Below are positions 1 to 31,322 of a DNA stretch of 37,561 bases, piece after piece. The position numbers were made by a program, and so were the translations under genes. Where the stretch lies: NCBI GenBank assembly GCA_029061225.1, contig JAIDSM010000264.1, forward strand, positions 1-37,561. The letters are read 5' to 3'. The notes under the pieces are model-generated. The model did no database searches and was not told the DNA's origin. It saw nothing but the letters and a program-made list of their open reading frames with translations. The DNA comes from Muribaculaceae bacterium (lineage in GTDB: Bacteria; Bacteroidota; Bacteroidia; Bacteroidales; Muribaculaceae). The first letter of the stretch is position 1; each line of letters starts with the position of its first letter.

Positions 1-981
1 TTTGCAGACTTTTGAAAAAAAACTTATAGAGTCTATAACCTTTCTGACTGTTTTTCTACTTAGCCTTTTAGATGACTTTCCGTAACAAACAGTTTGAACA
101 ATGCACTTTGTATTAGAAGTATCAAAATTTAAGGCAGTGTTTATTTTATTTAGTGAATTATTAATCAAGTTCGCTGAGTCTTCGATCTCAATCTGTTTGA
201 GATTATTCATAATCTCTGTAATAGTTTCTAAATCTTCAAAAGATAAATAAGGACGTACTCTGCCAAGCCATGTTGTATTCATAGCTTCTGGTCTGATAGA
301 AGGTATTAATATATCATTATTAATTAATGATATAAAGAAATCTTTTATTTCTGTTTCTTTGAAATCAAATCGTTTAGAAAGTAGTTCCAAAAGTTTTTTA
401 TAGCTAAATGATTTTATTTTTGACTGTAATAAATATTGTAAAATCGGATTTGATTCAAAAGAACTGAATATAACTCTTCCATTTTCTGTTTTTCGTAAGA
501 AAAAATAAAAAGAACCCTTTTTTATTATACTTCCATTTAAACAATAAGAAAATGATTGATTCTGTTTTAACAGATCTTTATTTCGAATTTTGATAAATAA
601 CAAATTCTCCAAGAGACTGTCAATATATATATATCTTTTATGAGGAGGAAAATCTTGAAGCTTGGATTCTTCGCCTATTTTACCGCTACTAATAGTTGCA
701 AATTCACCGAATGGAGTACTTCTAGTGCACATTCTAATGGCATACTTCATAAGAGTCATCCACATACGTTTAGAATCTTTTTCATTCAATTCATCATTTA
801 AGAATCTGGCGTATTCTGAATTAAGATTATTTGATACCCATAATAGAGCTCTATGAAAATCATTAGAGCTAATTAGACGAAATGCCTTGTTCTTATCGTT
901 AAGAATGTCAAAGAGAGAGTTATATGGAAGACAAGGTTGTCTTACAATAAACGAGTCTGTTGTTTTAAAAATAGTTTTCAT
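1..981 (-). CDS. lanB: LanB-like lantibiotic dehydratase, N-terminal part (continues off the left edge)
   Basis: Reading from the ATG at 981 down to base 1 gives 327 open codons without a stop, so the C-terminal part lies outside the window. The family dehydrates Ser and Thr of a precursor peptide, using glutamyl-tRNA, to make Dha and Dhb. Seen directly: an early 'FIVRQPCLPY' stretch and, about 80-105 residues in, 'KYAIRMCTRSTPFGEFA', which matches the conserved R-x-TPFG-x-FA segment of the lantibiotic dehydratase N-terminal domain. The start overlaps the LanC-like stop by ATGA (978-981), which suggests translational coupling in one operon. The gene is AT-rich like its two neighbours and unlike the rest of the window. 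It could be a full-length (about 1000 aa) or a split dehydratase; the visible part cannot tell. The family call is secure and the substrate is inferred. Confidence 0.88.
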   Translation of the reverse strand, partial: MKTIFKTTDSFIVRQPCLPYNSLFDILNDKNKAFRLISSNDFHRALLWVSNNLNSEYARFLNDELNEKDSKRMWMTLMKYAIRMCTRSTPFGEFATISSGKIGEESKLQDFPPHKRYIYIDSLLENLLFIKIRNKDLLKQNQSFSYCLNGSIIKKGSFYFFLRKTENGRVIFSSFESNPILQYLLQSKIKSFSYKKLLELLSKRFDFKETEIKDFFISLINNDILIPSIRPEAMNTTWLGRVRPYLSFEDLETITEIMNNLKQIEIEDSANLINNSLNKINTALNFDTSNTKCIVQTVCYGKSSKRLSRKTVRKVIDSISFFSKVCK

Positions 982-2153
982 TGTATGAAAATTAATCTAT
1001 TTAATGATTTTGACTGATCCAAAAGTCCTAAGCATATACCTGCAATACCTTCCAATATTCCATATTTGAGAACATATTTATTTTTAGTGTTGTCATAATA
1101 AGCCAATTTTTCTTTAAAAGAATATGGCTGTTCTAGAACATCTTTATAGGTAAAGTCATACCAGAAATTAACGGTCTTTGTTAATTCTCCATTGAATAGA
1201 TTAACATTGAAAAAATTAAATAAACTATATACTCCACAACTTCCATGACAAACACATCTATCATTTATAAGAGTATCTTCATTTAATCTTCTTTTTGAAG
1301 CATGAAGCACGACTTTTTGAGAGGCATATATGTAGCGTTCTGAATTTAAGTACATACCTAATTTGTATAAGGCTAGAGCAATCCCTAAATCTCCATAACA
1401 CCAAGCTAATCTGCTATTTCTTTTGTTTATTCTGTCGAGATAATAAAACGAAGGAAAACATGAAAAATTACGATGATTAAACTTAAGTATATTAATAAGG
1501 AATTCTCCAAATTCCTCAAGCATTCTTTTTGCGTTTGTATGAGTACTATTATCAATAAATTTTAAGGCATCAATTGTTGTTACGATTACTCCAGACAATC
1601 CATGGGATAAGGAGAGATTGTATGGTGATGGTCCGTTATATCTTTCAAATTTCATCGTCATTCCATCTTCTGTAAGAGATTTATTGATTGATAGGTATTC
1701 TAACCATTCCTTCAATACTATATTTGAGAAATAAGAATTATACTTACTTCTTTTCGAGAAATAATATAAAGCACCTACTGCACCGTGCAAGGGATCTATG
1801 TTGTGAATATTAAGGGACGTATGAAACCAATTGTATATTTCCTCGTCAAGTGTATACAAATTTTCGTGTACACCTCTGAGAACATTCTCTTCTTGTAAGA
1901 GTGTTAAAGTATAAGCCAATCCTGAAAGCCCGTTGCAATAAGAATGGACAATTGGATTGATTTGAATGCTCGAAATTATCTTCTCAAGATACTCATCACA
2001 GTTGATATTGATATTTTCTGTCTGCGACAATTTGGACAAGCAATAAACAATACCTAAATCTCCTCCTAAAAGACTATAAAGAGAAATATCTTTATTTTTC
2101 AAACTTTGTTCTAAACTAGATGCTATGAGTTTCAAAATGATTTTTCGTTTCAT
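978..2153 (-). CDS. lanC: LanC-like lanthionine cyclase
   Basis: This 391-residue protein has the usual length and motifs of LanC cyclases, zinc enzymes that add Cys thiols to Dha/Dhb to close (methyl)lanthionine rings. Zinc ligands are visible as Cys252 in 'WCYGDLG' and Cys302-His303 in 'CVCHGSCG'. The repeated helical-toroid motifs 'YCNGLSGLA' (about 72-80), 'PLHGAVGALYY' (121-131), 'SLSHGLSGV' (181-189) and 'GILEGIAGICLGLL' (365-378) are all present, and His184 sits in the conserved SHG segment. It is the first gene of a minus-strand operon and overlaps the LanB-like start by four bases. The divergent Cys-rich protein gene begins 92 bp away and is the obvious candidate substrate. The nucleotide sequence is AT-rich, consistent with acquisition by transfer. 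The enzyme family is well supported; the actual product is unknown. Confidence 0.92.
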   Translation of the reverse strand: MKRKIILKLIASSLEQSLKNKDISLYSLLGGDLGIVYCLSKLSQTENININCDEYLEKIISSIQINPIVHSYCNGLSGLAYTLTLLQEENVLRGVHENLYTLDEEIYNWFHTSLNIHNIDPLHGAVGALYYFSKRSKYNSYFSNIVLKEWLEYLSINKSLTEDGMTMKFERYNGPSPYNLSLSHGLSGVIVTTIDALKFIDNSTHTNAKRMLEEFGEFLINILKFNHRNFSCFPSFYYLDRINKRNSRLAWCYGDLGIALALYKLGMYLNSERYIYASQKVVLHASKRRLNEDTLINDRCVCHGSCGVYSLFNFFNVNLFNGELTKTVNFWYDFTYKDVLEQPYSFKEKLAYYDNTKNKYVLKYGILEGIAGICLGLLDQSKSLNRLIFIQ

Positions 2154-2199
2154 AATGTATAAGTAAATTTATTTTATATATATAGAACAAATTTGCAAT

Positions 2200-2207
2200 T
2201 AAGTTTG
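2200..2207 (+). promoter_or_regulatory. Possible Bacteroidota -7 box for the Cys-rich precursor gene
   Basis: TAAGTTTG fits the TAnnTTTG consensus and lies 38 bp before the ATG at 2246. The matching -33 TTTG is poor in the AT-rich upstream sequence, so support is moderate. I found no equally good box for the divergent lanC operon. Confidence 0.45.
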
Positions 2208-2245
2208 TTTAGTTAATGTGATAAATTTAAAATATTTATAATATC

Positions 2246-2971
2246 ATGAGAAAAATAACAAAAAAAGACTTGTCTCTTGCAATCAGAGATAGCGGATTTT
2301 CTTCGTCATCAAAAGAATTTAGTTATAGTAACCTAAACATTAAACGGGATGACTCTACAAAAGACACCGACGATTGCTCTACAAAAGACACCGACGATTG
2401 TGTTACTAAAAAAACATGCGATCAAACTGAAAACCTCTGCTATACTCATCATAAATGTACTGATCAAACTCAATATTTCTGTTATACTGAAAAAAAATGT
2501 TATACGCAGGATGATTGTGACACGGATAAAGATTGCGTTACCAACATTTATTGTGATACTGTAGATGGGTGTGGAACAGGTGTTTGTGACACAGTGTTAA
2601 CTAAATGTAGTCCATGTTTTCTATCCTCAAAATGTGAGGAAGAAACAGAGAAATGTCAAGATACCACACGAAAATGTGGGGATACTATAACCCAAGCTGT
2701 ATATTGTTGCGCACTTACGGAAGATGACAATCAATGTGTAGCTTATACTAAACAGTGTAAGGATACTGAACAGTGCCTAATAACTAGTGATAATAACTGT
2801 AATACAAATTCCCAATTTTGTATCAATACTCGTGACAATTGCGAGGCGACTTTAATCAATCAATGTATTGGAACCGATCAATGTATTGGAACCGATCAAT
2901 GTTTGGTAAGTGATGATTGTGAAGAAACGGTAACTTGTATAGCAACTTATCCAAATGGTGGATGTTTTTAA
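2246..2971 (+). CDS. Cys/Thr-rich repeat protein, candidate giant lanthipeptide precursor
   Basis: The 241-residue product has no Cys in residues 1-43 and 31 Cys in residues 44-240, about one every six or seven residues. From Cys79 to Cys109 the spacing is exactly six. A Thr or Ser sits three or four residues before most cysteines (for example T61/C65, T81/C85, T87/C91, T93/C97, T210/C213, T216/C219). I count 43 Ser/Thr after residue 36, enough to form rings with every Cys. The N-terminus 'MRKITKKDLSLAIRDSGF' is charged and helical-looking with no signal peptide, as expected of a leader, and 'YSNLNIKR' near 27-34 faintly resembles the FNLD-type box of class I leaders. Divergent neighbours are LanC- and LanB-like enzymes. 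No GG cleavage site is obvious. Alternatives are a metal-binding or structural repeat protein. The coding call is strong; the precursor role is inferred from composition and context. Confidence 0.8.
   Translation: MRKITKKDLSLAIRDSGFSSSSKEFSYSNLNIKRDDSTKDTDDCSTKDTDDCVTKKTCDQTENLCYTHHKCTDQTQYFCYTEKKCYTQDDCDTDKDCVTNIYCDTVDGCGTGVCDTVLTKCSPCFLSSKCEEETEKCQDTTRKCGDTITQAVYCCALTEDDNQCVAYTKQCKDTEQCLITSDNNCNTNSQFCINTRDNCEATLINQCIGTDQCIGTDQCLVSDDCEETVTCIATYPNGGCF
2353..2400 (+). repeat. Perfect 24-bp tandem duplication inside the Cys-rich gene
   Basis: Bases 2353-2376 and 2377-2400 are identical, and each encodes STKDTDDC, so the copy adds a complete Thr-x-x-Cys module in frame. Perfect DNA identity indicates a recent duplication. 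Confidence 0.95.
2861..2896 (+). repeat. Perfect 18-bp tandem duplication inside the Cys-rich gene
   Basis: Bases 2861-2878 and 2879-2896 are identical and encode the repeated QCIGTD module. This is the second independent in-frame expansion in the same gene. Confidence 0.95.
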
Positions 2972-3128
2972 TATTGGTAAGTTTAAACACACGTAAAGTG
3001 GGGATTTAGAGATATATAGGAATAAGATACCGTTTCTATCAATTGCATAGGATAATCTACATCAGTTGGCACGATTGTTTTAAATAACTGGCGCTGGAAA
3101 TATCTTCTATATACGTTATGGCATGATG

Positions 3129-3530
3129 TCAGCCTTCCGGCCTCGCATCTGACGAAGGTTTAAGGGCAAGGGTAATGTCATATGCATTGACGGCGATGAA
3201 AACAGAGGCGGCTCCAATCAGTATCCATGAAAGAGCCTGCGTATATCCGGGATTGATATTGTGTGCTGTCATTCCGGGGAATGTCGCTATGAGCGATTGG
3301 ATCATGTCCATTAGATAGGGGAGAAGGAGAGAAAAGAGTATACCGGAAAAGAAACCGGTGCAAGCGGCTACCGCTACGGCAATCCTGTTGCGTTTCATAA
3401 CTGCAGCGTTTTCGCGATGGATGAGTTCGACGGCGTCCAAGTTGCGTTCCAGCCGCTCCATAAACTCGAGGCTCGATGTCAGTTCAGGATCATAGCTGCT
3501 GAATATGTCTTTTATTTTATCTTCTTCCAT
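3129..3530 (-). CDS. Two-helix membrane protein of an ECF sigma operon, possible anti-sigma factor
   Basis: I do not recognise a named family for this 133-residue protein. It has a soluble, charged N-terminal part (about residues 1-48), a hydrophobic segment near 51-75, a short loop and a second hydrophobic segment near 98-118. The gene starts one base after the stop of the ECF sigma gene, so the two are almost certainly co-translated. A small membrane protein immediately downstream of an ECF sigma factor often acts as its anti-sigma factor, and the acidic cytoplasmic N-terminus would fit. No zinc-binding anti-sigma motif (H-x3-C-x2-C) is visible, so that role is inference from position only. 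Confidence 0.75.
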   Translation of the reverse strand: MEEDKIKDIFSSYDPELTSSLEFMERLERNLDAVELIHRENAAVMKRNRIAVAVAACTGFFSGILFSLLLPYLMDMIQSLIATFPGMTAHNINPGYTQALSWILIGAASVFIAVNAYDITLALKPSSDARPEG

Positions 3531-3531
3531 A

Positions 3532-4014
3532 TCATTCCTTTTCTAAAAGTTCTTTCAGAAGTTTCCTTCCACGTGTGAGGTGCTGACGCACTGCATCCTG
3601 GCTCGAATCTATGATTTCGGCTGTCTCTTTCACATTGTAACCCTCCATATAGTAGAGCAAAACCGAGGTTCTGACTTTGAAAGGGAGGCGTTCGAGTGCC
3701 TGATGGAGATGCTGATACCTGAAAGCCGAGTCTGACTCAGTCTCAGAGCATATTACGTTCGCCTCCTCATAGTCAACAGTCAGTTTATGAGATCTTCTAT
3801 GAGTCAGAAATGTATTGTGAGCAATGCGGAAAAGCCAGTATCTGAAACTGTCAGGGTTTTCAAGCGTAGCCATAGACATATATGCCTTCATGAATGATTC
3901 CTGAGCTATATCGTCGGCCAGCATGGAGTCTCCACAGCAGAGCGCCATGAGAAAACGCCTTAACGATTTCTCATGGTTCTTGACCTGGACTATGAACTGC
4001 TCTCTCGTCATCAT
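3532..4014 (-). CDS. ECF-family RNA polymerase sigma factor
   Basis: The 160-residue protein has the two domains of an extracytoplasmic-function sigma-70 factor. Region 2 spans about residues 12-75, with the core-binding 'DDIAQESFMKAY' and the -10-reading 'SFRYWLFRIAHNTFLTHRR'. Region 4 spans about 105-157, with a helix-turn-helix in 'VKETAEIIDSSQDAVRQHL'. It directs RNA polymerase to a specific promoter set. The ATG overlaps the stop of the upstream membrane protein by four bases (4011-4014), and the downstream membrane protein starts one base after its stop, giving a tight three-gene operon. The regulon cannot be read from the sequence. No SusC/FecI-type partner is adjacent, so an anti-sigma-coupled stress function is as likely as nutrient sensing. 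Confidence 0.93.
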   Translation of the reverse strand: MMTREQFIVQVKNHEKSLRRFLMALCCGDSMLADDIAQESFMKAYMSMATLENPDSFRYWLFRIAHNTFLTHRRSHKLTVDYEEANVICSETESDSAFRYQHLHQALERLPFKVRTSVLLYYMEGYNVKETAEIIDSSQDAVRQHLTRGRKLLKELLEKE

Positions 4015-4409
4015 TTCTTTCCGTCATGCACCTGATTGCGGGTCACAAAGTAGACTATAAGGTAAGCGAGTCCTACCGCGGTGGAAACTGCGCTCAAAAG
4101 AATTAATGAGTTAAGAGCGTCGGTATCTCCTGCGGGCCAAACAAAATATACAACCGAGAGGGCGATGCCTACGAGAGTATATATGCATCCACGGAGCAGT
4201 CGCGCGTTAAGGACCTCAAGTGGCGTGTGCTTTGGTTTGCCGAGAGCGTCAGCAAGTTTTTCGGCATCGATTTCCTCTCCTGATTCAATCGCCTTGATGA
4301 GGATCTCGGCTCGTTTGTCGTCGTTGTTTTTCTTTCTCATGCTGACGATAAGGACTATCGCGATAGGGAGAATGCATCCGCAGAAGATGGGAACTAAAGT
4401 TGCTGTCAT
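4011..4409 (-). CDS. Small membrane protein, DUF6249-like
   Basis: I place the start at the ATG of 'MTATLVPIFCGC' (4407-4409) rather than the upstream ATG at 4499. The extra 30 residues would come from low-complexity DNA next to a terminator, while the internal Met begins a clean membrane segment. The 132-residue protein has a hydrophobic helix at the N-terminus, a basic 'RKKNNDDKR' segment, an amphipathic middle with 'EEIDAEKLADALG', and two more hydrophobic helices in the C-terminal half. This resembles the DUF6249 proteins found beside ECF sigma genes in Bacteroidales, although that assignment is from memory. It is the first gene of the operon and is coupled to the sigma gene by an ATGA overlap. 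The function is unknown; control of sigma-factor activity at the membrane is possible. Confidence 0.75.
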   Translation of the reverse strand: MTATLVPIFCGCILPIAIVLIVSMRKKNNDDKRAEILIKAIESGEEIDAEKLADALGKPKHTPLEVLNARLLRGCIYTLVGIALSVVYFVWPAGDTDALNSLILLSAVSTAVGLAYLIVYFVTRNQVHDGKK

Positions 4410-4477
4410 GATAATTTTGTTTTTATTGGTTACATATATAGGATGCATTAGTGAGGGGAAATGTGACATTGGGATAG

Positions 4478-4520
4478 AAAAAAAACAGACATCCGACAAA
4501 AGGGATGTCTGAGTTTTTTT
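4478..4520 (-). terminator. Rho-independent terminator at the end of the pectin operon (bidirectional look)
   Basis: CAGACATCC (4486-4494) pairs perfectly with GGATGTCTG (4503-4511) around an 8-nt loop, flanked by an A-run on the left and a T-run on the right. On the minus strand the hairpin is followed by a U-tract, so it can end transcripts coming from the GH105 gene before the sigma operon. Confidence 0.85.
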
Positions 4521-4521
4521 G

Positions 4522-4552
4522 AGTCTTAAGTCTTAAGTCTTGAGTCTTAAGG
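4522..4552. repeat. Degenerate tandem AGTCTTA repeat
   Basis: About four copies of an AGTCTTA/AGTCTTG unit sit between the GH105 stop and the terminator. The array belongs to the same kind of junction-associated short tandem repeat seen elsewhere in this window. Confidence 0.7.
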
Positions 4553-4601
4553 GCTACGCAGTAAATGGTTAGGCTGATGGCGGTTAGGAATTGGCTACGC
4601 C

Positions 4602-4617
4602 CAAGCTAAAGCAAGTC
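4602..4617. repeat. Dispersed 16-bp element, copy 1
   Basis: CAAGCTAAAGCAAGTC occurs here and again at 29498-29513, each time in non-coding DNA after a glycosidase gene and preceded by a similar G-C-T-x-C-G-C segment. Confidence 0.75.
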
Positions 4618-4636
4618 GCCTACCCATATCTGATAT

Positions 4637-4655
4637 CGGAGGCTGGAAGCCTCCG
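4637..4655. other. 8-bp stem-loop just after the GH105 stop
   Basis: CGGAGGCT (4637-4644) and AGCCTCCG (4648-4655) pair around a three-base loop. No U-tract follows, so it is more likely a 3'-end stabilising or processing hairpin than a terminator. Confidence 0.55.
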
Positions 4656-4664
4656 TTCCATAAG

Positions 4665-5798
4665 TTAGAGTTTGTAGACTTCTACGCCGGCGAGGAGGAA
4701 GCAGCCAGTGCCGTAATCGTCGAAGTCAGGCACTGAGTCGTAGGCAACGGGCTGGCCGTCTTTCGGTTCCTTGCCTGTGCCCTGAACGTAGCCGAGATAG
4801 CCGTTCTCGTGTACTGCCTCGTTGACCATGGCGTTCCAAGCCTTGGTGATTACGGGCATGTATTTGGCCTTGTCAAGGATACCGTTGCGTACACCCCAGG
4901 CCATGCCATAGACGAAAAGGGCAGTGCCGGAGAGTTCTTTGCCTCCGAAATTATCGGGATCGTGGAGCGAAACATTCCAGAATCCGTCAGGACGCTGGCA
5001 CTTAACGAGTGCGGCGCACATGTCCTGAAGGTCCTTCACATAAGTAGCGCGGTGGGGATCATCCGCAGGTGTGTCCTCGAGAACACGCACAAGGGCAGCG
5101 ACAACCCAGCCGTTGCCACGGCTCCAGTAGCAGTTCTTGCCGTTGGGTTCCTTGTAAGGAGGCACGAAGTCAGCGTCGCGCCACCATAGACCTTCCTTCT
5201 GGTTGTAGAGGCCTCCGGCAAGAGTGTTGCGGCTCCACTCATACATGTCCCAAGCCTTCTCGGCATAACGTTTGTCACCGGTCACAGCACTCAGCTTTGT
5301 GAGCACAGGCATACCCATCTGGATGGCGTCGATCCAGGTCCAGTCATCGACCTGGGGGGTGTTGACAAGCATATTGCAAAGCGAAATGGTCTGGGTAAGC
5401 ATCTCCGGTTTCGGAGTCAGTTTATAGAGGTCAATGTAGGTCTGTCCGCACGCGTAGTTGTCGGCATTGCGGGTGGTGGTGTCGTCGCGACGCATGCCCC
5501 ACTTGAAGCCCTCGGCCCAATCGGTGGCATACTGCCAGTATTTCTTATCAGGATAGATCGAGTGGAGCGCCATGAGGCCCTCGAAATATATGGAGCGGGT
5601 CCAGATATTAGCCTCGTATACCTTCTTGCGGCTGTAGTAGGGGATACCAAGCAGGGGATCGGGATGCTTGCGCATGTAGAGATCGTTGACTTTGATCAGA
5701 GTCTTCAGTGTCTCCTGGCGGGGAGGCAGCTCTTCCTTCGCCATTATGGCAGGAATGGCCATCAGCACGGCGAGGATTGTTAAGATTGTCTTTTTCAT
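4665..5798 (-). CDS. GH105 unsaturated rhamnogalacturonyl hydrolase
   Basis: I use the ATG at 5798 ('MKKTILTILAVLMAI'), which begins a signal peptide ending near 'IMA'. The upstream ATG at 5831 would translate a low-complexity intergenic repeat. The 377-residue mature-type enzyme has the alpha6/alpha6-barrel pattern of GH105, which removes terminal 4,5-unsaturated galacturonate from pectic oligosaccharides. Visible are 'WTWIDAIQMGMPVL' with the likely catalytic Asp157, 'YWSRGNGWVVAAL' (about 224-236) and the C-terminal 'YGTGCFLLAG' near the end. It is the last gene of the pectin series, 140 bp after GH106, and precedes a strong terminator. Unsaturated substrate implies a pectate or rhamnogalacturonan lyase, and none is present in the window. 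The second GH105 copy is fused to GH28 at 10956-13508. Confidence 0.92.
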   Translation of the reverse strand: MKKTILTILAVLMAIPAIMAKEELPPRQETLKTLIKVNDLYMRKHPDPLLGIPYYSRKKVYEANIWTRSIYFEGLMALHSIYPDKKYWQYATDWAEGFKWGMRRDDTTTRNADNYACGQTYIDLYKLTPKPEMLTQTISLCNMLVNTPQVDDWTWIDAIQMGMPVLTKLSAVTGDKRYAEKAWDMYEWSRNTLAGGLYNQKEGLWWRDADFVPPYKEPNGKNCYWSRGNGWVVAALVRVLEDTPADDPHRATYVKDLQDMCAALVKCQRPDGFWNVSLHDPDNFGGKELSGTALFVYGMAWGVRNGILDKAKYMPVITKAWNAMVNEAVHENGYLGYVQGTGKEPKDGQPVAYDSVPDFDDYGTGCFLLAGVEVYKL

Positions 5799-5808
5799 AA
5801 TGTTTTTA

Positions 5809-5842
5809 TTAATGCATAATTCATAATGCATAATTCATAATC
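5809..5842. repeat. Tandem CATAATGCATAATT-type repeat
   Basis: Alternating CATAAT and GCATAATT words lie directly upstream of the GH105 start. The same words occur upstream of uxaC and downstream of the GH10 gene. Confidence 0.75.
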
Positions 5843-5938
5843 AGAAGATGCGGAACACATGAAGTATTACAGATGACTTCGGTCAGAAGAATGCATTTAT
5901 GAGACTATGCGTGGAGTTAAAAAGTATTATGTTGGTTA

Positions 5939-8680
5939 TTATTTTTTGATGAGGGGTATGAGGTTGACTTCGGAGTTGAGGCCGGAGGGTACAGTCTCCC
6001 AGTCGGAGTAGTCCACTACTTTCTTGCCGATGACGCTCGCGATATTGGCATCCTTAAAGATCTTCCATTTCATTCCCTGTCGGTCATAGTCAGCGATACG
6101 ATTGGCTGGAAGATTCGTAACGTCGATTTCCAATGTATTGACGCCAGGCTGCAGAAGTTCTCCAATTTCGATGCTGAAGGGAACGCTCCAGACCTTACCT
6201 GCATCCTTGCCGTTGACCTTGACCGACGCGCTTTCACGCAGGTCGCCGAGGTCAAGCAACCAGCTGTCTGCCGAAACTCCTTTCGGAAGCTCGAATGTGG
6301 TTTTGTAGCGGGCCGTGCCGGTGTTCACCTTGGCAGCGTCTACGTCCAGATTTGTCCAGGCTGTAACTGTATCGGTCTTGAATGTCCCCTCTATCGCAGG
6401 CTGGCTCTCAAGGAACGTTATGCTCCATCCCTTATCGATACCGACGGGATTTCCCTTGTCGTAGTATGTCCAGTCTTCAGCTTCTATATCGGAAGGGAAG
6501 GTTTTCAGCAGCAACGACTGCCCCGGCTCCATCTGAAGCATGATCTCCGTGGTTCCGTTCGGTGCCTTACGCGTTTTCGCCTTTCCTTTCTTACCGGTCA
6601 GCGGATCGAAAATCATCACGCTTTCAGCAGGGGTGGCGATTGTCTCCCATCCGTCGATACCGTTGTCGTTGAGAAGAGCGAGGAAATAGTTGCTGCCGCC
6701 AGCCTCGTTAGTGCGTCGGAGTACAGACACGCCTTTGCTGCGCAGGGGTTCCGGAGTAGCTCCGGTCATGCGTATTGCAGCCTGGATGTCCTTCACCGGA
6801 GAGGCCATGTCCTTTTTCAGCTCCGCAAGCTGAGCACGTCTTTTCTCGAGGTCGCCGAGTCCGGGAACGTCAGACGGGAGCTTCTCCGTGAAGATGACGT
6901 TAGCTCCCTGCGCTTTCAGTGCCTTTAGCGCTGCGAGGGTTTCCACCGGCATGAAGTTGACGGGGGGAACTATTATTGATTTATAACGGTTGCCGCCTTT
7001 CGACACTATGCTTCCATCAGCAGCAACGCTGAGATCGGCGATGAGGGCATCCGACAGATAGTCAGGGTCAAGACCTGCCTTCACAAGCTCATTGACCATG
7101 GCCTTCACATCGGGCATCTTCTTATCCATGCTGTGGATATCAAACATCATGTAGATACCGTCCTGACGCTGCCATATGTCGTCGATTGGGAAGTAGAGCA
7201 GAACATCGGAATCCGGATTCCCCGCAGTCAGGAATGCCTGACAACGTGCTATGTATTTAAAAAGCGCGTCTGCATCCTTCCATATCGTATTAGTCGGAGA
7301 CATGTTGACAGATGCGTAGAAGAGCCATCCCGGAAATTCCACTCCCTTGGGCGAATATGTCGCGCCATGGAAGAAGATGTGGTTGACTCCGGCTGCGAGC
7401 ATCTGGTCGATCTCTGGTTTTGCTACCGATAGCGATGTATGGAAATGCTCGGTAAGCCAAGTCAGTGTCTCGGCCGACACGAGTGGCTTCCCGGCTATAT
7501 GTGCGGCTGAAGATGCAAACTTGAGCACTGCCGGATCGGCGTCGCTGTGACGGGAGTCGCCCGTAGGATGGAGTCCGGGAATATTCAGGTCGGAACGTCC
7601 GAACGATTCGCACTCCGGAATGTCGACGATGGCGTATAGATCGATTATATTGGCGGGACTGCCATGGCTCTGGTTGCGGATCTGCGCTCCGTGGCTGTGG
7701 GCCCAACGGGTCCAGAGGTCGGTGAAGTTCTCACGCAAGACACGCGCCAATGTATATCGGTAGTCGCGAGTGATGCGTCCGCGCAGCTCGGTCTGGTTTT
7801 CCTTATCCGCAAACTCCGGAAGATATTGCTCGAGGCGGTAGCCATGGTCTTTGGCAAACTCCTCGAGGAGTCCCTTGGTCCAGTCGGAACCATACACCTC
7901 GTATGAATCATTGAACATCACTTTCGGGAAAGTATCTTCCTTTCCCTTGAACGCGCGGTCAAATCTGTCGAGGTATTTCTTCACAGCCACGCTGTCGTAG
8001 TGATTGACGACATATCCTTCTCCGCCCGGAGCCGCACGCTTCACTTTCTGGAAAGTCCTTCCGGCGAAAAGTGCGTACACCTCCCAGTTGCCTTTCTTAG
8101 GAGCAGTCCAGTTGAGGGTTCCGTCTTTCTTGAGTTTATCGGTTATGTCGATTCGCGTGTCACCGTCTACGGCCATGATTTTCTCAACAGTCGCGAACGG
8201 TCGCTGCTTCTCGTCCTGAGGCTCTATCTTTACGTTGAGCTTTTTTCCGGGCTCTACGTTCCACTTCTCGATGATGAGTTTCTGGGCGCTTTCCGCTTCT
8301 GTAACTTCCGGACCTCCGAAAGGCCATCCAGTGCCGTTGTTCATCTCAGGCTGCAGACCCAATCTACGGCTTTCGTCGGTCACGTGGCGTAGCATCTCCA
8401 TCCATTTGTCGGAGAGGTAGGGGATATCGTTGGCTTCATTGCCCTGTACTCCATAGATGGGAGTTATCTCGAATCCTCCCATTCCCTGGCGGGCGAATTC
8501 CTCCAGGTTGTAGGTGAGTCCTTCCTTGTCGACAGCGCTTCCCTGCCACCACCACCGCACGAACGGGCGGTTGACAGTGGTCTCGGCATACCAGTCGGTT
8601 TTGCTGTCTTCCGCATGGCAGAAGAAAGTCGCGCTTCCGAGCAGGCAGGCTGCCGCGAGAAATTTCAGTTTTGTCTTCAT
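5939..8680 (-). CDS. GH106 alpha-L-rhamnosidase
   Basis: The 913-residue protein starts with a signal peptide (about residues 1-23, ending 'FFCHA'). It continues into the characteristic GH106 opening 'RPFVRWWWQGSAV' (38-50), 'GMGGFEITPIYG' (66-77) and 'NNGTGWPFGGP' (114-124). The family releases alpha-linked L-rhamnose from rhamnogalacturonan, usually in the periplasm. A catalytic barrel fills the first two thirds. A C-terminal beta-sandwich segment of galactose-binding type, with 'SASVKVNGKDAGKVWSVPF' and 'GVNTLEIDVTNLPANRI', follows at about 790-870. It lies between the six-hairpin lipoprotein gene (125 bp upstream) and GH105 (140 bp downstream), so rhamnose removal would expose uronate ends for GH105. 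I could not map the catalytic Glu residues confidently. The length is typical and I see no truncation. Confidence 0.93.
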   Translation of the reverse strand: MKTKLKFLAAACLLGSATFFCHAEDSKTDWYAETTVNRPFVRWWWQGSAVDKEGLTYNLEEFARQGMGGFEITPIYGVQGNEANDIPYLSDKWMEMLRHVTDESRRLGLQPEMNNGTGWPFGGPEVTEAESAQKLIIEKWNVEPGKKLNVKIEPQDEKQRPFATVEKIMAVDGDTRIDITDKLKKDGTLNWTAPKKGNWEVYALFAGRTFQKVKRAAPGGEGYVVNHYDSVAVKKYLDRFDRAFKGKEDTFPKVMFNDSYEVYGSDWTKGLLEEFAKDHGYRLEQYLPEFADKENQTELRGRITRDYRYTLARVLRENFTDLWTRWAHSHGAQIRNQSHGSPANIIDLYAIVDIPECESFGRSDLNIPGLHPTGDSRHSDADPAVLKFASSAAHIAGKPLVSAETLTWLTEHFHTSLSVAKPEIDQMLAAGVNHIFFHGATYSPKGVEFPGWLFYASVNMSPTNTIWKDADALFKYIARCQAFLTAGNPDSDVLLYFPIDDIWQRQDGIYMMFDIHSMDKKMPDVKAMVNELVKAGLDPDYLSDALIADLSVAADGSIVSKGGNRYKSIIVPPVNFMPVETLAALKALKAQGANVIFTEKLPSDVPGLGDLEKRRAQLAELKKDMASPVKDIQAAIRMTGATPEPLRSKGVSVLRRTNEAGGSNYFLALLNDNGIDGWETIATPAESVMIFDPLTGKKGKAKTRKAPNGTTEIMLQMEPGQSLLLKTFPSDIEAEDWTYYDKGNPVGIDKGWSITFLESQPAIEGTFKTDTVTAWTNLDVDAAKVNTGTARYKTTFELPKGVSADSWLLDLGDLRESASVKVNGKDAGKVWSVPFSIEIGELLQPGVNTLEIDVTNLPANRIADYDRQGMKWKIFKDANIASVIGKKVVDYSDWETVPSGLNSEVNLIPLIKK

Positions 8681-8710
8681 GTATGTTGGATTTTTGGGTT
8701 TTTGGGGTTT

Positions 8711-8739
8711 TTAAGGTCTTTAAGGTCTTTAGGGCCTTT
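8711..8739. repeat. Short AAGGTCTTT repeat upstream of GH106
   Basis: Two and a half copies of a TAAGGTCTT unit are present. The same unit forms a longer array at 34851-34895 next to xylB, so this word is reused at distant junctions. Confidence 0.7.
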
Positions 8740-8750
8740 GGTTTTTGTGG

Positions 8751-8776
8751 ATAGCGAGGGGGTCAGGCCTCGCTAT
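8751..8776. other. 9-bp stem-loop between two operon genes
   Basis: ATAGCGAGG (8751-8759) pairs with CCTCGCTAT (8768-8776) around an 8-nt loop. There is no U-tract on the transcribed strand, so a segment-stabilising or processing role is more likely than termination. Confidence 0.55.
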
Positions 8777-8805
8777 CCTTTGATTTTCCTGTGGATTCTG
8801 TAGTG

Positions 8806-10944
8806 TCAGGGTAGTGGCTTGATGCCTTCCCATCGTACGTCCCAGGTTCCGTCTTTCGGGAAGCCCGGGTTCTCTATCTCACATCCGTCCCAACCTGCAG
8901 TCATCAGGGCGATAGCTGTCAGAAGTCCGCCGTTGCCTGGGAGGTAGCAGCGGAGGCGATTGTCCTGGAAATTATGTCCGTTGGGGAGATATGTGTTGGT
9001 GCGTTTGTCCATCAGAAGGGCGTTGACTGCCTTCTCTGGTTCACCGACACGAACTGCGCACATAGCGGTCGTAGGATAATCCCAGCCCCAAGTCTTGTCC
9101 CAGTTCCAGTTGTCGTAGATCCAGTCGAAGGTGTTGTTGAGGATCTTCGGGTCGGCGAGCGGAGAAGCCGGCAGTATTCCGAGGGATCCAAGCACCGCCA
9201 TATGGTCGGAAGTGAAGCGGATGTCCTCATACGTCTGCGGAGCGGTCTCAGCCGCAAGATAAAGGGAATCCTTGGCGGCAAGATGGGAGAGCTCTGAAGT
9301 GATCTTGTCCCACTCCGGATTTCTTTCGAGACCCATGCGTTCGCGCCATTTCTGGGCAGTGTTTAGACCAAAATGCCAGTATGAGAGCTCAAACGGAGGA
9401 TTGACAGTCTCCGATGCGCGAAGAGTCTCCTGAGCCGGTATTATACCCTTTAAGATATAGCGGTTGTTTTCCTCATCGCGGTCCGCGAAAGAAGCCATGA
9501 ACTGCGCGGTCTCCTCGATAAGCGGGTAATATTTCTTGAGCACGGCTGTGTCGGGATTGGCGCGGTAGAGGAGTTCGGCGAGGTAGATGAGATGAGGCTG
9601 CTGCCAGATGAGGAAAGAACCTACACCGGAGGGTGCCTCTATCGAGGAGGGATCAGTCATCTTCATCCAGCGTACACCTTCAAAGCCCTGACGCTCCGCG
9701 ATATTCTTCGCATTTGCTTCCGCCTTCTCATACCAAGGGAGTGTCCTGGCGAGGAGATCTTCATGACCGTAGAGCGCAAACTGAGCCTGATGCCACCAGA
9801 TCATCTCGAGATGGAACTTGCCGAACCATGAATTGTAGGTCAGGCCTGTTTCCTGCGGAGGGGTGGTGCCTGCGCAGTTTGTGGCGAGAAGATACTGGGA
9901 GAGCACAACGCGGCGTTCGAGTTCCTTGGCGCGGGGATCGGTGCAATGACTGAAATCGACAACGCCTCCCTTCTTCCAGAATTCCTGCCAGTAGTCGGAA
10001 GCTGCTGCGATGGTCGCGTCGGCCGACGGATTGTTGCCGTCTGTCATCTCCTCGGTAAACTGAGCGGTGATGTTCCATTTGTCGGCATCCGGGGTGATGA
10101 CCACTGTGTTGGCTGAATCAAGGTTTGCCTCACTCTTGCCGCTCCAGTTGAGCGTGATGAAGTAGGCTGTAGAGTCCAAGCTGTGCTTCACTACGGCCCT
10201 GCCCGCTTCAGAGAGTACGATTTCAGTAGTGTGCAGAGAATCCGCATTCCAGTCGCAGGCATCGTCGCTGTGCTTGCCGGTAGGGTAGGGAAGCCTGAGA
10301 GCGATGCTGTGGCGTCCCTCATCGTTTATCTCGGCGGCAACGAGGTCAAGGTTCGGATCTACGGAAGTCTTGACCTCCGCTTTCTTACCGTCGGCCTTGA
10401 AGCTGGAGCTGATCATTCCGTTCCACATGTCGAGTGTCTGGTCGATATCTGTAAGCGACTCCGGAGTCAGGCCGTGGAAGCCGAGGGCTCCCAGATGAAG
10501 ACGATGGGGATTGACGCGGTAATAGTTGGCGGCATCCTTCTGACGGCCGTCTTCCTTGAACTGAACGGAATATAGTTCCTGACGTCCTCGGCCGAAGTCG
10601 TATTCCTTAAGGGTCTCCTCAAAGCGGTAGTCCTCGGTATTAGGAAAGCTGTGCCATCCCCAGTCGCTCATAGTGCCGAGTGGCACGCCGTTGGTATAGG
10701 TCTCAGGGAAAGTCTGGAGGCCTGTCACGTCGGCTGTGAATGCGAAACGTCCGTTACCCACCGTAAGCGACGCCATCGTGTCGATGGCTGTCACGTGCGG
10801 ATTATTGCGCGTCACAAGCGCGTAGCGGTCGATCTTGCCGTTTTTGTCGCTGCATCCGGATGCTATTGCCGTCGCGACGAAAAGAGTCGTCGCGACGGTA
10901 GAGAATTTGATTCCGGAGCAGAATGTTCTGCCGAATGTATTCAT
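8806..10944 (-). CDS. Six-hairpin glycosidase-like lipoprotein (GH65/GH95-like fold)
   Basis: The 712-residue protein begins with a lipoprotein signal peptide whose lipobox is 'IASGC' with Cys31, so it is probably membrane-anchored. The N-terminal part to about residue 300 is beta-rich, and the C-terminal part looks like an alpha6/alpha6 barrel. The segments 'KFHLEMIWWHQAQFALYGHEDLL' (376-398, including Glu380), 'NWNWDKTWGWDYPTTAM' and 'LPGNGGLLTAIALM' resemble GH65/GH95-type six-hairpin enzymes. I cannot assign a family or substrate. The place in the operon, 11 bp after GH28-GH105 and before GH106, points to a pectic side-chain sugar such as fucose, arabinose or galactose, but that is inference. 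Beta-sandwich plus barrel and a length near 700 fit that fold class. Confidence 0.78.
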   Translation of the reverse strand: MNTFGRTFCSGIKFSTVATTLFVATAIASGCSDKNGKIDRYALVTRNNPHVTAIDTMASLTVGNGRFAFTADVTGLQTFPETYTNGVPLGTMSDWGWHSFPNTEDYRFEETLKEYDFGRGRQELYSVQFKEDGRQKDAANYYRVNPHRLHLGALGFHGLTPESLTDIDQTLDMWNGMISSSFKADGKKAEVKTSVDPNLDLVAAEINDEGRHSIALRLPYPTGKHSDDACDWNADSLHTTEIVLSEAGRAVVKHSLDSTAYFITLNWSGKSEANLDSANTVVITPDADKWNITAQFTEEMTDGNNPSADATIAAASDYWQEFWKKGGVVDFSHCTDPRAKELERRVVLSQYLLATNCAGTTPPQETGLTYNSWFGKFHLEMIWWHQAQFALYGHEDLLARTLPWYEKAEANAKNIAERQGFEGVRWMKMTDPSSIEAPSGVGSFLIWQQPHLIYLAELLYRANPDTAVLKKYYPLIEETAQFMASFADRDEENNRYILKGIIPAQETLRASETVNPPFELSYWHFGLNTAQKWRERMGLERNPEWDKITSELSHLAAKDSLYLAAETAPQTYEDIRFTSDHMAVLGSLGILPASPLADPKILNNTFDWIYDNWNWDKTWGWDYPTTAMCAVRVGEPEKAVNALLMDKRTNTYLPNGHNFQDNRLRCYLPGNGGLLTAIALMTAGWDGCEIENPGFPKDGTWDVRWEGIKPLP

Positions 10945-10955
10945 TTCAGGTCTCC

Positions 10956-13508
10956 TTATTTCAGGTTGTCATATTCAATACCAGCGAGGATGAATGGGCC
11001 GACGCCCTTGGCATCGTTGTCGCGGATAGGTTCGCTCAGGTAATACTCAAACGAACCGTCTCTCCTGCGCTTGTCGCCGCTGTCAAGGCCGGCGACGGCG
11101 CAGCAATTGGTCAGTGATATGGTGCCGTCGGGATTTTCCTTCACGAATGTCTCGACCATTCCCTCGTAGCCTTTCTTGGCAGGAGCGAGATAAGACTGGT
11201 CGAGGAGACCGAGTCGCACGGCGCGCAGGAGATTGTAGACGAACATCGCGGAAGCGGTAGCCTCAAGGTAGTTGCCTTCCTTGCCCGGCTCATCCATCAC
11301 CTGATACCATACGCCCGACGTCGGATCCTGATACTTAACGACTCCGTCGGCAACACTCTTAAGGAGCTTGAGCATTTCGGGACGCTTCGGATGGTCGGCG
11401 GGCATCTTTTCGAGGACATCGGTGATAGCCCAGATATACCAGCCCATGGCGCGGCCCCATGCATGCTGCGATTGACCGGTCTTCTTGTCGGCCCAGAACT
11501 GCTTCTTCTTCTCGTCCCAAGCGTGGCGGTAGAGGCCGGTAGCCGGGTCGTAGGTCTTCTTGCCTACTGTGATGAACTGGTTTGCGATATCGTTCCAGAG
11601 TTTCGGGTCGGAACCGAGGAAACGGTTGACGTACTCGGCATAGAACGGCTGTCCCATATAGAGACCGTCAAGCCATGCCTGCCAGGGATAGATCTTCTTG
11701 TGCCAGAAATTCTTCGATTTTGTTCTGGGCTGATCCTTGAGCTGAGCGTAGATGTTGTCGGCCGCCTTTTTGTATTTCTCGTCGCCTGTGATGTCGTAGG
11801 CCTGAAGAATCTCGATGCCGCCCTTGACGTTGTCGATATTGTAGGAGTCTTTCTTGAACGCCTTGATAGAGCCGTCAGGTTCTACAAAGAAGTCGGTATA
11901 GTTGAGCACGTAGTCGAGCATCTCCTTGTCGTTGTAGGCTCGTGCGGCGCCGAGAATGCCCTCGAGTTCCACAGCGGCAGCATAGCTCCATTTCACACCT
12001 GTCACGTCGAGAGTCTCGCTCTTGGGATTGCGGATCATTTCAGATCTTGCCATGCGATAGGCGAGAGGTCCGCCATTGATACATGTGACGCCGTTGATCT
12101 TGAGATTGTCGAATACTACGTCCTTCACCTGTCCGGTGATATTGTTGCCGTCGGCCACACCGTTGAAGTCGCAGTTCTTGAGCTCGATGTCGTAGACGTT
12201 GCATTTGTCGGCAAGTCCGATGATGTAGACACCATACTTGCTCTTCTGGCAGGTCACATTTTCGAGATAGACGTTGCGCACTGTCGGGGGATATGCGCGC
12301 TTGCAGCGTTCCTTTGGCTCGTAGTCGAGGTTGATCTTGAGGACCGCTTCCTTACACTGGCCGACCTCCACGTTGCGAACGTAGATGTCTTCGATCACAC
12401 CGCCGCGGCAAGTGTTGGTCTTGATGCGGATCACGCGGTCGAGCTCGGGGCTGTCCATCTTGCAGTTCTCCACGAAGAGAGTCTTGTAGCCGCCTGAAAT
12501 CTCACTGCCGACCACCACACCTCCGTGGCCATTCTTCATGTAGCAGTTGCGCACGATGATGTTCTCGCTCGGGATGGCACGCTTGAGGCCATCGCGGTTT
12601 CTACCGCTCTTGATTGCGATGCAGTCGTCGCCGGTATCAAAGAAGCAGTTTTCGATCAGCACGTCCTTACATGATTCGGGATCGCATCCGTCACCGTTAG
12701 GACCATCGTTCTGAACGTGCACGCCGCGAACAGTCACGTTGTTACATTTCAGGGGATGCATCACCCAGAAAGCAGAGCGGAGCATTGTTACGTCTTCGAT
12801 GAGGACGTTCTTGCACTCTACCGGGTTGACAAGCTGGGGACGCATACCCCAGTTCTGGCCGAGTCGGCGTTCGAAGAGATCGACGCCGTTCTCGTTCCAT
12901 TCCTGGAGGATGACGCGGCCCTTTCGCTGAGACTCCTGGCCTTCCTTCCAGCCCCAGCGTTCGTTGCCGACCATTCCCCACCAGTTGTCGCGGCTCGCAC
13001 CGCCGTCGATGGTGCCTTTGCCTGTGATTGCGATGTTCTCCTGCTTGTAGGCATAGACCATAGGACTATAGTTCCAGCAGTCCATACCCTCCCATGAAGT
13101 AAGCACCATGGGATAATACTGGTGAGTGTCTGTGGTGAAGAGCAATGTAGCTCCTTCCTCAAGATGCAGGTTGACATTGCTCTGCAGCTTTACGGGACCG
13201 GTCAGCCATGTTCCGGCCGGAACGATCACGCGTCCGCCGCCATCCTTGCTGCACTTCGCTATCGCGGAGTTGATGGCATCGGTATAGAGGACTTCGCCGA
13301 ACTTGTCCTTCTTGAGGCTCTTTTTGTTTTTCGGCATGAAATCCTTGATGTTGTAGTCCTTGTCTCGGAAGGTCGGGGCCTTGATACGGGCCTCTACCTG
13401 GGGATACACGTCGGTCCATGCCTTAGCGGCTCTTTCAGCGATGCCTTCGGCCATCGCCGAGCCCAGACATAGAAGGGCGGTAGCTAATGAAATCAGGGTT
13501 TTCTTCAT
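10956..13508 (-). CDS. Fused GH28 polygalacturonase and GH105 unsaturated glucuronyl hydrolase
   Basis: The 850-residue protein has a signal peptide (about 1-20, 'LCLGSAMA'). A GH28 beta-helix follows to about residue 475, then a GH105 barrel from about 485 to the end. GH28 catalytic motifs are complete: 'NGDGCDP' (271-277), 'DTGDDC' (291-296), 'GHG' (327-329) and 'RIK' (361-363). The second half carries 'WSYAAAVELEGIL', 'HAWGRAMGWYIWAI' and a C-terminal 'GPFILAGIEY', typical of GH105. One polypeptide can therefore hydrolyse galacturonan-type linkages and also trim unsaturated ends. The gene is 9 bp after CE12-GH28 and 11 bp before the six-hairpin gene. The fusion is in frame across a continuous ORF, so it is not a sequencing artefact of two adjacent genes. 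Confidence 0.93.
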   Translation of the reverse strand: MKKTLISLATALLCLGSAMAEGIAERAAKAWTDVYPQVEARIKAPTFRDKDYNIKDFMPKNKKSLKKDKFGEVLYTDAINSAIAKCSKDGGGRVIVPAGTWLTGPVKLQSNVNLHLEEGATLLFTTDTHQYYPMVLTSWEGMDCWNYSPMVYAYKQENIAITGKGTIDGGASRDNWWGMVGNERWGWKEGQESQRKGRVILQEWNENGVDLFERRLGQNWGMRPQLVNPVECKNVLIEDVTMLRSAFWVMHPLKCNNVTVRGVHVQNDGPNGDGCDPESCKDVLIENCFFDTGDDCIAIKSGRNRDGLKRAIPSENIIVRNCYMKNGHGGVVVGSEISGGYKTLFVENCKMDSPELDRVIRIKTNTCRGGVIEDIYVRNVEVGQCKEAVLKINLDYEPKERCKRAYPPTVRNVYLENVTCQKSKYGVYIIGLADKCNVYDIELKNCDFNGVADGNNITGQVKDVVFDNLKINGVTCINGGPLAYRMARSEMIRNPKSETLDVTGVKWSYAAAVELEGILGAARAYNDKEMLDYVLNYTDFFVEPDGSIKAFKKDSYNIDNVKGGIEILQAYDITGDEKYKKAADNIYAQLKDQPRTKSKNFWHKKIYPWQAWLDGLYMGQPFYAEYVNRFLGSDPKLWNDIANQFITVGKKTYDPATGLYRHAWDEKKKQFWADKKTGQSQHAWGRAMGWYIWAITDVLEKMPADHPKRPEMLKLLKSVADGVVKYQDPTSGVWYQVMDEPGKEGNYLEATASAMFVYNLLRAVRLGLLDQSYLAPAKKGYEGMVETFVKENPDGTISLTNCCAVAGLDSGDKRRRDGSFEYYLSEPIRDNDAKGVGPFILAGIEYDNLK

Positions 13509-13517
13509 GATGGATTA

Positions 13518-15611: not shown

Positions 15612-15636
15612 TATATGATATGAAATATTCTAAGGT

Positions 15637-17139: not shown

Positions 17140-17141
17140 GA

Positions 17142-18557: not shown

Positions 18558-18576
18558 ATGCAGTTAGTTTTAGATA

Positions 18577-18607
18577 ATTCTTAATTCATAATGCATAATT
18601 CATAATT
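18577..18607. repeat. CATAATGCATAATT-type repeat upstream of uxaC
   Basis: The same words seen at 5809-5842 recur here in the uxaA-uxaC gap (18558-18745), which otherwise holds only A/T-rich sequence. Confidence 0.7.
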
Positions 18608-18745
18608 GTTTGTCGCTGAATTTCAGTTGAAAACATTTGATGATACTATACATCAAATTTGACCAATTACTTAATATTCTGTCGATTGAAAAGTCATTTA
18701 TGAATTATTCATTTAGAAATCGTCTATATTGATTATTCGTCCGGG

Positions 18746-25740: not shown

Positions 25741-25939
25741 GTAAAAAGGAAGAAAATCATTAGACCGAAAGCCCTGTGCTTCGATTATTTGATTTTGAAG
25801 GACCCTTTTGGTATTGACCTTGAAACGGAAGTTACAAATGATGAAACAGTAGTTTGGAGTTGGATAAGGTTATTAAAGCCGGAATAAACATTACAAATAC
25901 CTCAAAAAAGTTAATCCAACACATTTTTTTGCCTGAATA

Positions 25940-25971
25940 TTTGTTTGGGAGGAATAAAAGTATTAACTTTG
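25940..25971 (+). promoter_or_regulatory. Promoter of the Abi-family gene
   Basis: TTTG (25940-25943) is followed after 20 nt by TAACTTTG (25964-25971), an exact consensus match. It lies downstream of the ATG at 25854, so that start cannot be the one used from this promoter; the ATG at 26040 fits. Confidence 0.75.
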
Positions 25972-26039
25972 TACCCATAGAACCTACCGCGCCTCTCAAC
26001 GATGCGAAACTGGTAGGTCATTTTTTTATAGAACCACAC

Positions 26040-29464: not shown

Positions 29465-29467
29465 TCT

Positions 29468-29535
29468 TCCAATGCATAATGCATAATTAGCTGCGCTCAA
29501 GCTAAAGCAAGTCATAATGCAAAATGCATAATTAC
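29468..29535. repeat. CATAATGCATAATT-type repeat and second copy of the dispersed 16-bp element
   Basis: Degenerate ATGCATAAT words flank CAAGCTAAAGCAAGTC at 29498-29513, the same 16 bases as at 4602-4617. The segment lies between the GH10 stop and its terminator. Confidence 0.75.
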
Positions 29536-29577
29536 ATATTTCAAGAGGTATCTGATAGTATTCAAATATGACAATTA

Positions 29578-29617
29578 AGAAGGGCCCCTCAACGCGAGGG
29601 ACCCTTCTGATTTTTTT
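29578..29617 (+). terminator. Rho-independent terminator of the GH10 gene
   Basis: AGAAGGG (29578-29584) pairs with CCCTTCT (29602-29608) and CCCTC (29586-29590) with GAGGG (29596-29600), with one internal mismatch and an AACGC loop. Seven T follow at 29611-29617. Confidence 0.92.
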
Positions 29618-29654
29618 GATCGATGATAGTTGACAATAGTCAATATCAAGAATC

Positions 29655-31301: not shown

Positions 31302-31322
31302 TTATCTAAAGTATTTAACCTT

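Follow-up and report, generated by a model that had tools for sequence, protein, structure and literature searches.

A 241-residue, 31-cysteine open reading frame of a Muribaculaceae bacterium as the putative precursor of a class I lanthipeptide of new form

What is made from a long, cysteine-studded open reading frame (ORF) that diverges from genes for lanthipeptide-modifying enzymes? We addressed this question for a stretch of 37,561 nucleotides from a Muribaculaceae bacterium (the window), which comprises bases 1-37561 of the 42,986-base contig C184 in the draft genome G000 (287 contigs, 85.75% complete). The ORF occupies 2246..2971 on the forward strand, with the ATG at 2246 and the stop codon at 2969-2971, and its product has 241 residues and 31 Cys, as the first-pass annotation had reported. 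The Cys-free N-terminal stretch of 43 residues was likewise found as described, the Cys residues running from residue 44 to residue 240. The Cys spacing, described as near-regular, measures 5 to 10 residues in 28 of the 30 Cys-to-Cys steps; the other two steps, of 3 and 1, depart from that description. Residues 1-36 (2246..2353, +) are taken as the leader from their leader-profile score, with an approximate cleavage point. The core, residues 37-241 (2354..2968, +), carries 31 Cys, 43 Ser/Thr, 38 Asp/Glu and 16 Lys/Arg, and so at least one Ser/Thr per Cys (43 vs 31). It includes a CC pair, Cys154-Cys155 (2705..2710, +). A perfect 24-bp tandem repeat at 2353..2400 (+) doubles the unit STKDTDDC, and an 18-bp tandem repeat at 2859..2906 (+; 2.7 copies, 96% matches) duplicates a CIGTDQ unit. 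Ring units were probably gained through such in-frame tandem duplication.

Across a divergent intergenic region of 92 bp (2154..2245), which holds no other ORF of at least 60 residues, a gene on the reverse strand (978..2153) starts at 2153 and encodes a 391-residue LanC-type cyclase (PF05147, 2e-38). It has the WCYG and CHG motifs, which are conserved and zinc-ligand motifs of LanC (PMC3091789, as far as its accessible text goes), and its C252, C302 and H303, at the zinc-ligand positions, form a C-C-H triad that was invariant among 8 aligned LanCs. The 3′ end of this gene is overlapped by four bases by the frame of a LanB-type dehydratase (1..981, −; PF04738, 2.5e-25), which leaves the contig at base 1. 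The first-pass annotation had placed divergent LanB and LanC homologues 92 bp away; both families and the gap stood up, but LanB is represented by its first 327 residues only. Profiles built from alignments matched solved structures of both enzyme types: the LanC profile matched the cyclases NisC (1.3e-14) and 8byk (9.8e-28), and the LanB profile matched the dehydratases NisB (9.1e-49) and 9g04 (4.2e-65). The sequence TAAGTTTG at 2200-2207 (+), 38 bp 5′ of the precursor ATG, matches TAnnTTTG, which we take to be the Bacteroidetes −7 promoter consensus, and it was the sole match on both strands of 2101-2300.

We then searched the G000 assembly with the LanB profile for the rest of the dehydratase, and the window fragment was the only match. 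The elimination domain (PF14028) had one match in G000 (2.9e-46), located where the 5,001-base contig C4 ends. There, positions 1513-4999 on the reverse strand (locus L105) hold the elimination-domain frame, cut by the contig end, and then a gene whose 854-aa product carries an MG2 domain (PF01835, 4e-9). A comparison of the ends of C184 and C4 revealed no overlap. In the same-genus genome G199, a single contig carries LanC, LanB, the elimination protein and the MG2 protein in this order, while a separate contig begins with the precursor, which has 17 Cys, or 18 if counted from the earliest possible start. We infer that C184 and C4 are probably neighbours and that C4 continues the LanB operon of the window. 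A C39 peptidase (PF03412) was not found in the incomplete G000 assembly and was present in 2 of 8 genomes with multi-Cys loci.

The locus differs in base composition from the rest of the window: within 1-2971, GC amounts to 28% in the LanB part, 31% in LanC and 35% in the precursor gene, against 50% in 3129-37561, which suggests a recent acquisition or a special constraint. Such a step, in a draft genome of 287 contigs and with a relative (G082) whose LanB has shrunk to a 99-aa remnant, would also be expected if the locus were decayed or an assembly chimera from which no product is made. We give this explanation hardly any weight, since no stop interrupts the precursor frame, that of LanC or the visible stretch of LanB, the elimination-domain frame stays open until the end of C4, and GC is likewise low (36-43%) in the genes of four intact precursors from relatives.

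Beyond the locus, the window continues with a 133-aa frame without a family above the cut-off (3129-3530), which follows the gene of an ECF-type sigma factor (3532-4014, −; PF04542, PF08281). Genes at 4665-20245 (−) encode glycoside hydrolases of families GH88, GH106 and GH28, with one GH28 in fusion with GH88 and another accompanied by a GDSL lipase; an MFS transporter and an altronate/galactarate dehydratase are encoded there too. Judged by these families, this region looks like a pectin-use locus. An abortive-infection-like protein (Abi_2, PF07751) is encoded at 25854-26942 (+), and GH10 xylanase-type and GH67 glucuronidase-type proteins, of xylan use, are encoded within 27113-33347.

The N-terminal region of the ORF product was compared with LxLxKx5L, the leader motif of Bacteroidetes class I precursors given in the available part of PMC7268733. 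The exact motif was not found in the precursor leader: residues 9-19 read L-S-L-A-I-R-D-S-G-F-S, in which the first two Leu are kept, Lys is replaced by Ile (with Arg next) and the last Leu by Ser. A GG site was sought before the first Cys and was absent. The AlphaFold model of the precursor showed no fold (mean pLDDT 40.9 over the whole protein) and a disordered core, with some confidence for residues 1-20 only, including a helix at residues 6-14. Because AlphaFold cannot include thioethers, we count this predicted disorder as neutral to mildly supportive.

We next considered whether the arrangement of Ser/Thr and Cys resembles that of a ring-forming substrate. It had been claimed that Thr/Ser precedes each Cys by three or four residues; this is true of 24 of the 31 Cys and fails for 7, and with positions −3 to −5 the count reaches 27 of 31. 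When −2 to −6 without an intervening Cys is allowed, 30 of 31 Cys have a Ser/Thr, the exception being Cys155 of the CC pair, whose own segment holds none. The 27 Cys with an own-segment Ser/Thr at −3 to −5 compare with 16.6 expected when the non-Cys residues are shuffled, and none of 3,000 shuffles reached 27. Single positions were less clear-cut, the Ser/Thr signal at +3 (14 Cys, 6.9 expected) being as strong as those at −3 (13) and −4 (12). We then applied the ring rule of PMC11251773, in which Cys residues are taken in turn from the C terminus and each is joined to the closest unused Ser/Thr at a distance of more than two residues upstream; according to the accessible text of that study, the rule is correct for 92 of 100 known patterns, and it was used here without its labionin step. 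All 31 Cys were bridged, and since every shuffle also bridged 31 of 31, the bridge total is no evidence. The kind of bridge was informative: 29 predicted bridges enclose no Cys and would form non-overlapping, tandem rings, 13 of four residues and 11 of five, whereas shuffled cores gave a mean of 13.5 and a maximum of 24 such rings (0 of 5,000 reached 29) and the reversed core gave 18. Therefore, the Ser/Thr-Cys pattern is tidy, non-random and directional under the ring rule.

The closest natural comparison came from P0001, the sole close homologue among about 5.8 billion proteins, a sequence of 178 residues that begins after the leader region and lies on a 2,159-base contig. P0001 has one unit less at the 18-bp tandem repeat of the precursor gene. 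Between the two proteins, Cys is identical at 27 of 27 aligned positions and Thr at 25 of 28, against 70 of 117 for the other residues. Taken as a class, Ser/Thr is kept at 31 of 34 positions (P 0.0003 against the same 70 of 117; P = 0.003 when conservative changes of the other residues are scored as kept). In this aligned pair, conservation is higher at Thr and Cys than elsewhere. Searches with the precursor alone yielded nothing convincing among the 246 other same-family genomes (one match, 0.0095), and the same held for 392 further genomes of the order, with four matches at 0.003-0.007, and for phage records.

The enzymes might still act on this protein and close only a few rings, leaving most Cys as thiols, in disulfides or as metal ligands and most Thr intact. 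Published lanthipeptides do not exceed seven bridges in the accessible text of PMC11251773, and the known examples from Bacteroidota in the literature consulted have few, such as the three of the Runella product (PMC9576775, available part). Set against these precedents, the tidy pattern spans the whole core with its 29 non-overlapping rings, and P0001 has kept every aligned Cys and all but three of the Thr; we regard a product of few rings as unlikely.

Relatives were sought through the enzymes. The window LanC alone, used as the query, found no relative, whereas a LanC alignment gave 545 matches, the best 80 of which were kept. Among 247 same-family genomes, LanC was found in nine, G000 included, one of them (G142) being marginal and carrying stops. 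Stretches around LanC were examined in the seven other genomes, and in six of these between one and three Cys-rich ORFs were found, each of 92-180 aa and containing 11-22 Cys (in G040 a fourth, with 17 Cys, lies further out); in the seventh, G199, the precursor is on a different contig. Hence Cys-rich precursors beside LanB and LanC do occur, in related loci of the same family; the first-pass annotation had proposed a search for such homologues in other Bacteroidales. Many leaders of these multi-Cys precursors fit LxLxKx5L, an example being MKKISKEDLSLDKQEVSAL. From 60 sequences, duplicates among them, 22 representatives were drawn after a degenerate copy at L130 had been dropped. The CC pair is present in all 22, Cys counts range from 8 to 31, and the net charge of the core is negative in every one (−6 to −27; −22 for the window precursor). 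Ser/Thr stands at −3 to −5 of 237 of their 355 Cys, compared with 156 expected (0 of 3,000 shuffles). The strongest single position was +3 after Cys (133 vs 64.8 expected), and Ser/Thr was avoided at +1 (24 vs 73.6 expected); a core built of tandem six- to seven-residue units would yield both the before-Cys and the +3 signals.

We also counted how often enzyme and precursor occur together. In the 247 same-family genomes, LanB was detected in nine (E <= 1e-5) and the precursor family in 11 (E <= 1e-3), and all nine LanB genomes are among the 11, a count that is partly circular in that the profiles were seeded mostly from multi-Cys loci. The only non-seeds of the precursor profile among the 11 genomes are G199, G082 and G135 (G098 was seeded via a near-identical protein), and the only non-seed of the LanB profile among the nine is G082. 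A Fisher test of LanB against precursor gave P 7e-15; both profiles were seeded from the same loci, and therefore no weight is placed on this value. What the count does show is how rarely a precursor occurs without LanB. There are two such cases: in G138 the contig ends inside an MG2 gene adjoining the precursor, and in G135 a degenerate precursor adjoins an MG2 gene, the 14 kb examined containing neither LanB nor LanC. Homologues consistently found apart from LanB and LanC, which the first-pass annotation had named as evidence against its reading, are thus not what we observed. In G082, one of the nine, the precursor and the MG2 gene are kept next to the 99-aa LanB remnant. A decayed locus is L131 (7110-10951), with LanB down to a 99-aa remnant and the precursor and MG2 gene remaining. 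In a wider sample of 295 Bacteroidales genomes, LanB matched in 23, G000 included, and the precursor family was found in G000 and as one borderline fragment with stops. The multi-Cys form is thus seen in one family within the sampled genomes, and LanB is not absent from Bacteroidales. At the LanC loci examined outside the group, precursors had up to 14 Cys by the Cys filter.

Does the window precursor belong to this group? A leader profile of 38 distinct leaders, built with the window precursor excluded, placed it at rank 35 of 6,076 LanC-locus ORFs with E 0.02, and the non-family ORFs at ranks 30-53 all resemble conventional LanA ORFs. Six duplicate loci were removed before the LanB tree and the 82-row LanC tree were built. 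The LanB tree (first 420 residues) separated the 15 LanBs of multi-Cys loci, that of the window included, from 50 others with support 100/96, the window LanB being on a very long branch. The long-branched window LanC fell outside the group, beside L029 (92/88), in the 82-row LanC tree and inside the group (99/98) in a tree of 39 rows that are a chosen subset of the 82. A core profile built without the window precursor and P0001 gave the window core 3.6 bits, a score equalled in 3 of 300 cases when Cys was preserved in shuffling and in 24 of 300 when the order of segments was shuffled; the best-domain score was equalled by 34 of 300 and 119 of 300, respectively. Core homology to the relatives was thus not established by this profile, some shuffled cores scoring as high. 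We treat the precursor as a divergent, oversized member of the group, a placement suggested by leader, LanB and context and not by core homology. The group is graded, with this precursor as its largest member seen and no one-off, the others with LanB and LanC having 11-22 Cys.

The weak core homology, together with a length far beyond that of described precursors and an orientation divergent from LanC and LanB, would also fit a protein that uses its many Cys for disulfides or metal binding and has no relation to LanB and LanC, whose true substrate would be encoded elsewhere. We consider this very improbable. The leader-profile score argues against it, as do the conservation of Thr besides Cys and the pairing of LanB and LanC with Cys-rich ORFs in related loci. 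In 2154-3128 no alternative ORF of at least 60 aa exists outside the precursor; the only other frame of that size is one of 71 aa inside it. Moreover, the 241-aa protein has no visible signal peptide and had no match in Pfam or NCBIfam at E <= 1.

Taken together, we put the probability at roughly 80% that the ORF encodes a class I lanthipeptide precursor, with a leader that would bring in LanB and LanC and a core predicted to carry about 29 to 31 tandem thioether rings. The lanthipeptide-precursor reading of the first-pass annotation is supported by the leader profile, by the conserved Thr and Cys and by the directional ring pattern; its figure of about 30 rings is a prediction. Several results count against the reading: the low core-profile score, the 82-row LanC tree, the partly kept leader motif, the strong +3 signal, the truncation of LanB, the lack of overlap between C184 and C4, and the absence of a GG site and, in the incomplete G000, of a C39 peptidase. 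In the proposed mechanism, the leader would bind LanB, which would glutamylate Thr and Ser of the predicted-disordered core. A separate elimination protein would then remove the glutamate to give dehydrobutyrine and dehydroalanine; the dehydratase would thus consist of two parts, the glutamylation part in the window and the elimination part on C4 of the same assembly. Each Cys would then be coupled by LanC to a dehydrated residue that in most cases lies three or four positions upstream, and the product would be an acidic chain with about 30 rings, mostly of four and five residues. These reactions follow the established chemistry of class I (PMC9993889), and split dehydratases are on record (PMC9486935), in the accessible parts of both articles.

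In the related loci, a further protein accompanies the precursors. Among the 80 LanC loci (the best 80 of 545 matches, some shortened by contig ends), the precursor family occurs at 12 and the MG2 protein at 7; the latter stands at 6 of the 12 precursor loci and at L031, which is the G199 locus, and at none of the other 67. Several of the 80 loci are the same contigs as in the same-family genomes, so that this count and that of the 247 genomes are not independent. The MG2 gene lies at most 30 bp from the precursor gene on the same strand in G138, G082, G098 and G040. MG2-domain proteins of about 900 aa adjoin multi-Cys precursors at L015, L129, L130, L131 and L133. Modelling the MG2 protein of a relative gave a poor result (pLDDT 53.8), and the best Foldseek matches of that model, complement and alpha-2-macroglobulin proteins with TM-scores of about 0.2, only back up the Pfam MG2 match at low confidence. 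The N terminus of the MG2 protein, judged by eye, resembles a signal peptide. It is our guess that this protein could be a surface partner of the ring product.

We then compared the window precursor with known systems. The accessible text of PMC11251773 gives up to seven bridges for known lanthipeptides (geobacillin I, elgicin). Both share many (methyl)lanthionine rings with the window precursor, and geobacillin I is also of class I, whereas 29-31 bridges are predicted here; geobacillin I has a nisin-like antimicrobial activity (PMC13343206, available part), and none is known for the window product. The largest lanthipeptide predicted in the consulted portion of PMC11251773, among ORFs of up to 100 residues, has eight bridges and comes from Tannerella forsythia. 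It resembles our case in belonging to Bacteroidales, in the modular tandem duplication noted there and in being a prediction only. Neither LanC tree placed L075, a T. forsythia LanC that may or may not belong to the locus of that study, within the multi-Cys group. The Bacteroidetes LxLxKx5L precursors of PMC7268733, whose survey, in its accessible text, covered ORFs of 30-120 residues, are alike in the adjacent LanB and LanC, the MKK..L-L-type leader and the Ser/Thr ahead of Cys; the window precursor differs in its 241 aa, 31 Cys, partial motif, missing GG and acidic core. The split LanB systems SapT and SptBa/SptBb (PMC9486935, same limits) likewise have glutamylation and elimination on separate proteins; they concern a Streptomyces morphogenetic peptide, whereas in the window genome each part has its own contig, and we infer that the two are linked. 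That LanB matched in 23 of 295 sampled Bacteroidales genomes is at odds with PMC10352776, according to whose accessible part 1,136 Bacteroidales genomes screened with BAGEL4 gave no LanB. Lanthipeptides of rumen Muribaculaceae MAGs have been noted in PMC8241843, the available text of which does not describe the precursors, and the Runella product of PMC9576775 is of class I, with three (methyl)lanthionines. No description of many-ring precursors of such size was found in the open-licence literature, seen mostly at the level of abstracts; one may exist elsewhere.

The reading of the ORF as a class I lanthipeptide precursor of a new form, the largest of a group for which we found no description, is well supported. 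If the rings form, one enzyme set would carry out about four times the cyclisations of any known case cited in the accessible text of PMC11251773, and a question left open there would become testable, namely whether the ceiling on bridges comes from chemistry or from usefulness. Genome mining would then have missed the group by construction, the surveys having been limited to 100 or 120 residues (PMC11251773, PMC7268733, available parts). As to function, a surface or structural role seems likelier than that of a nisin-like antibiotic because the core is acidic and relatives adjoin an MG2-domain protein; this is the weakest step of our reading. We can picture, tentatively and with the odds somewhat against it, a new functional class of acidic, thioether-stapled chains with about 10 to 31 tandem lanthionine rings, which would be lengthened and shortened through duplication of ring units, would be displayed at the cell surface with the alpha-2-macroglobulin-like MG2 protein and would serve structure or adhesion and not killing. 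An acidic many-ring product at loci with an MG2-domain protein suggests a non-antibiotic role.
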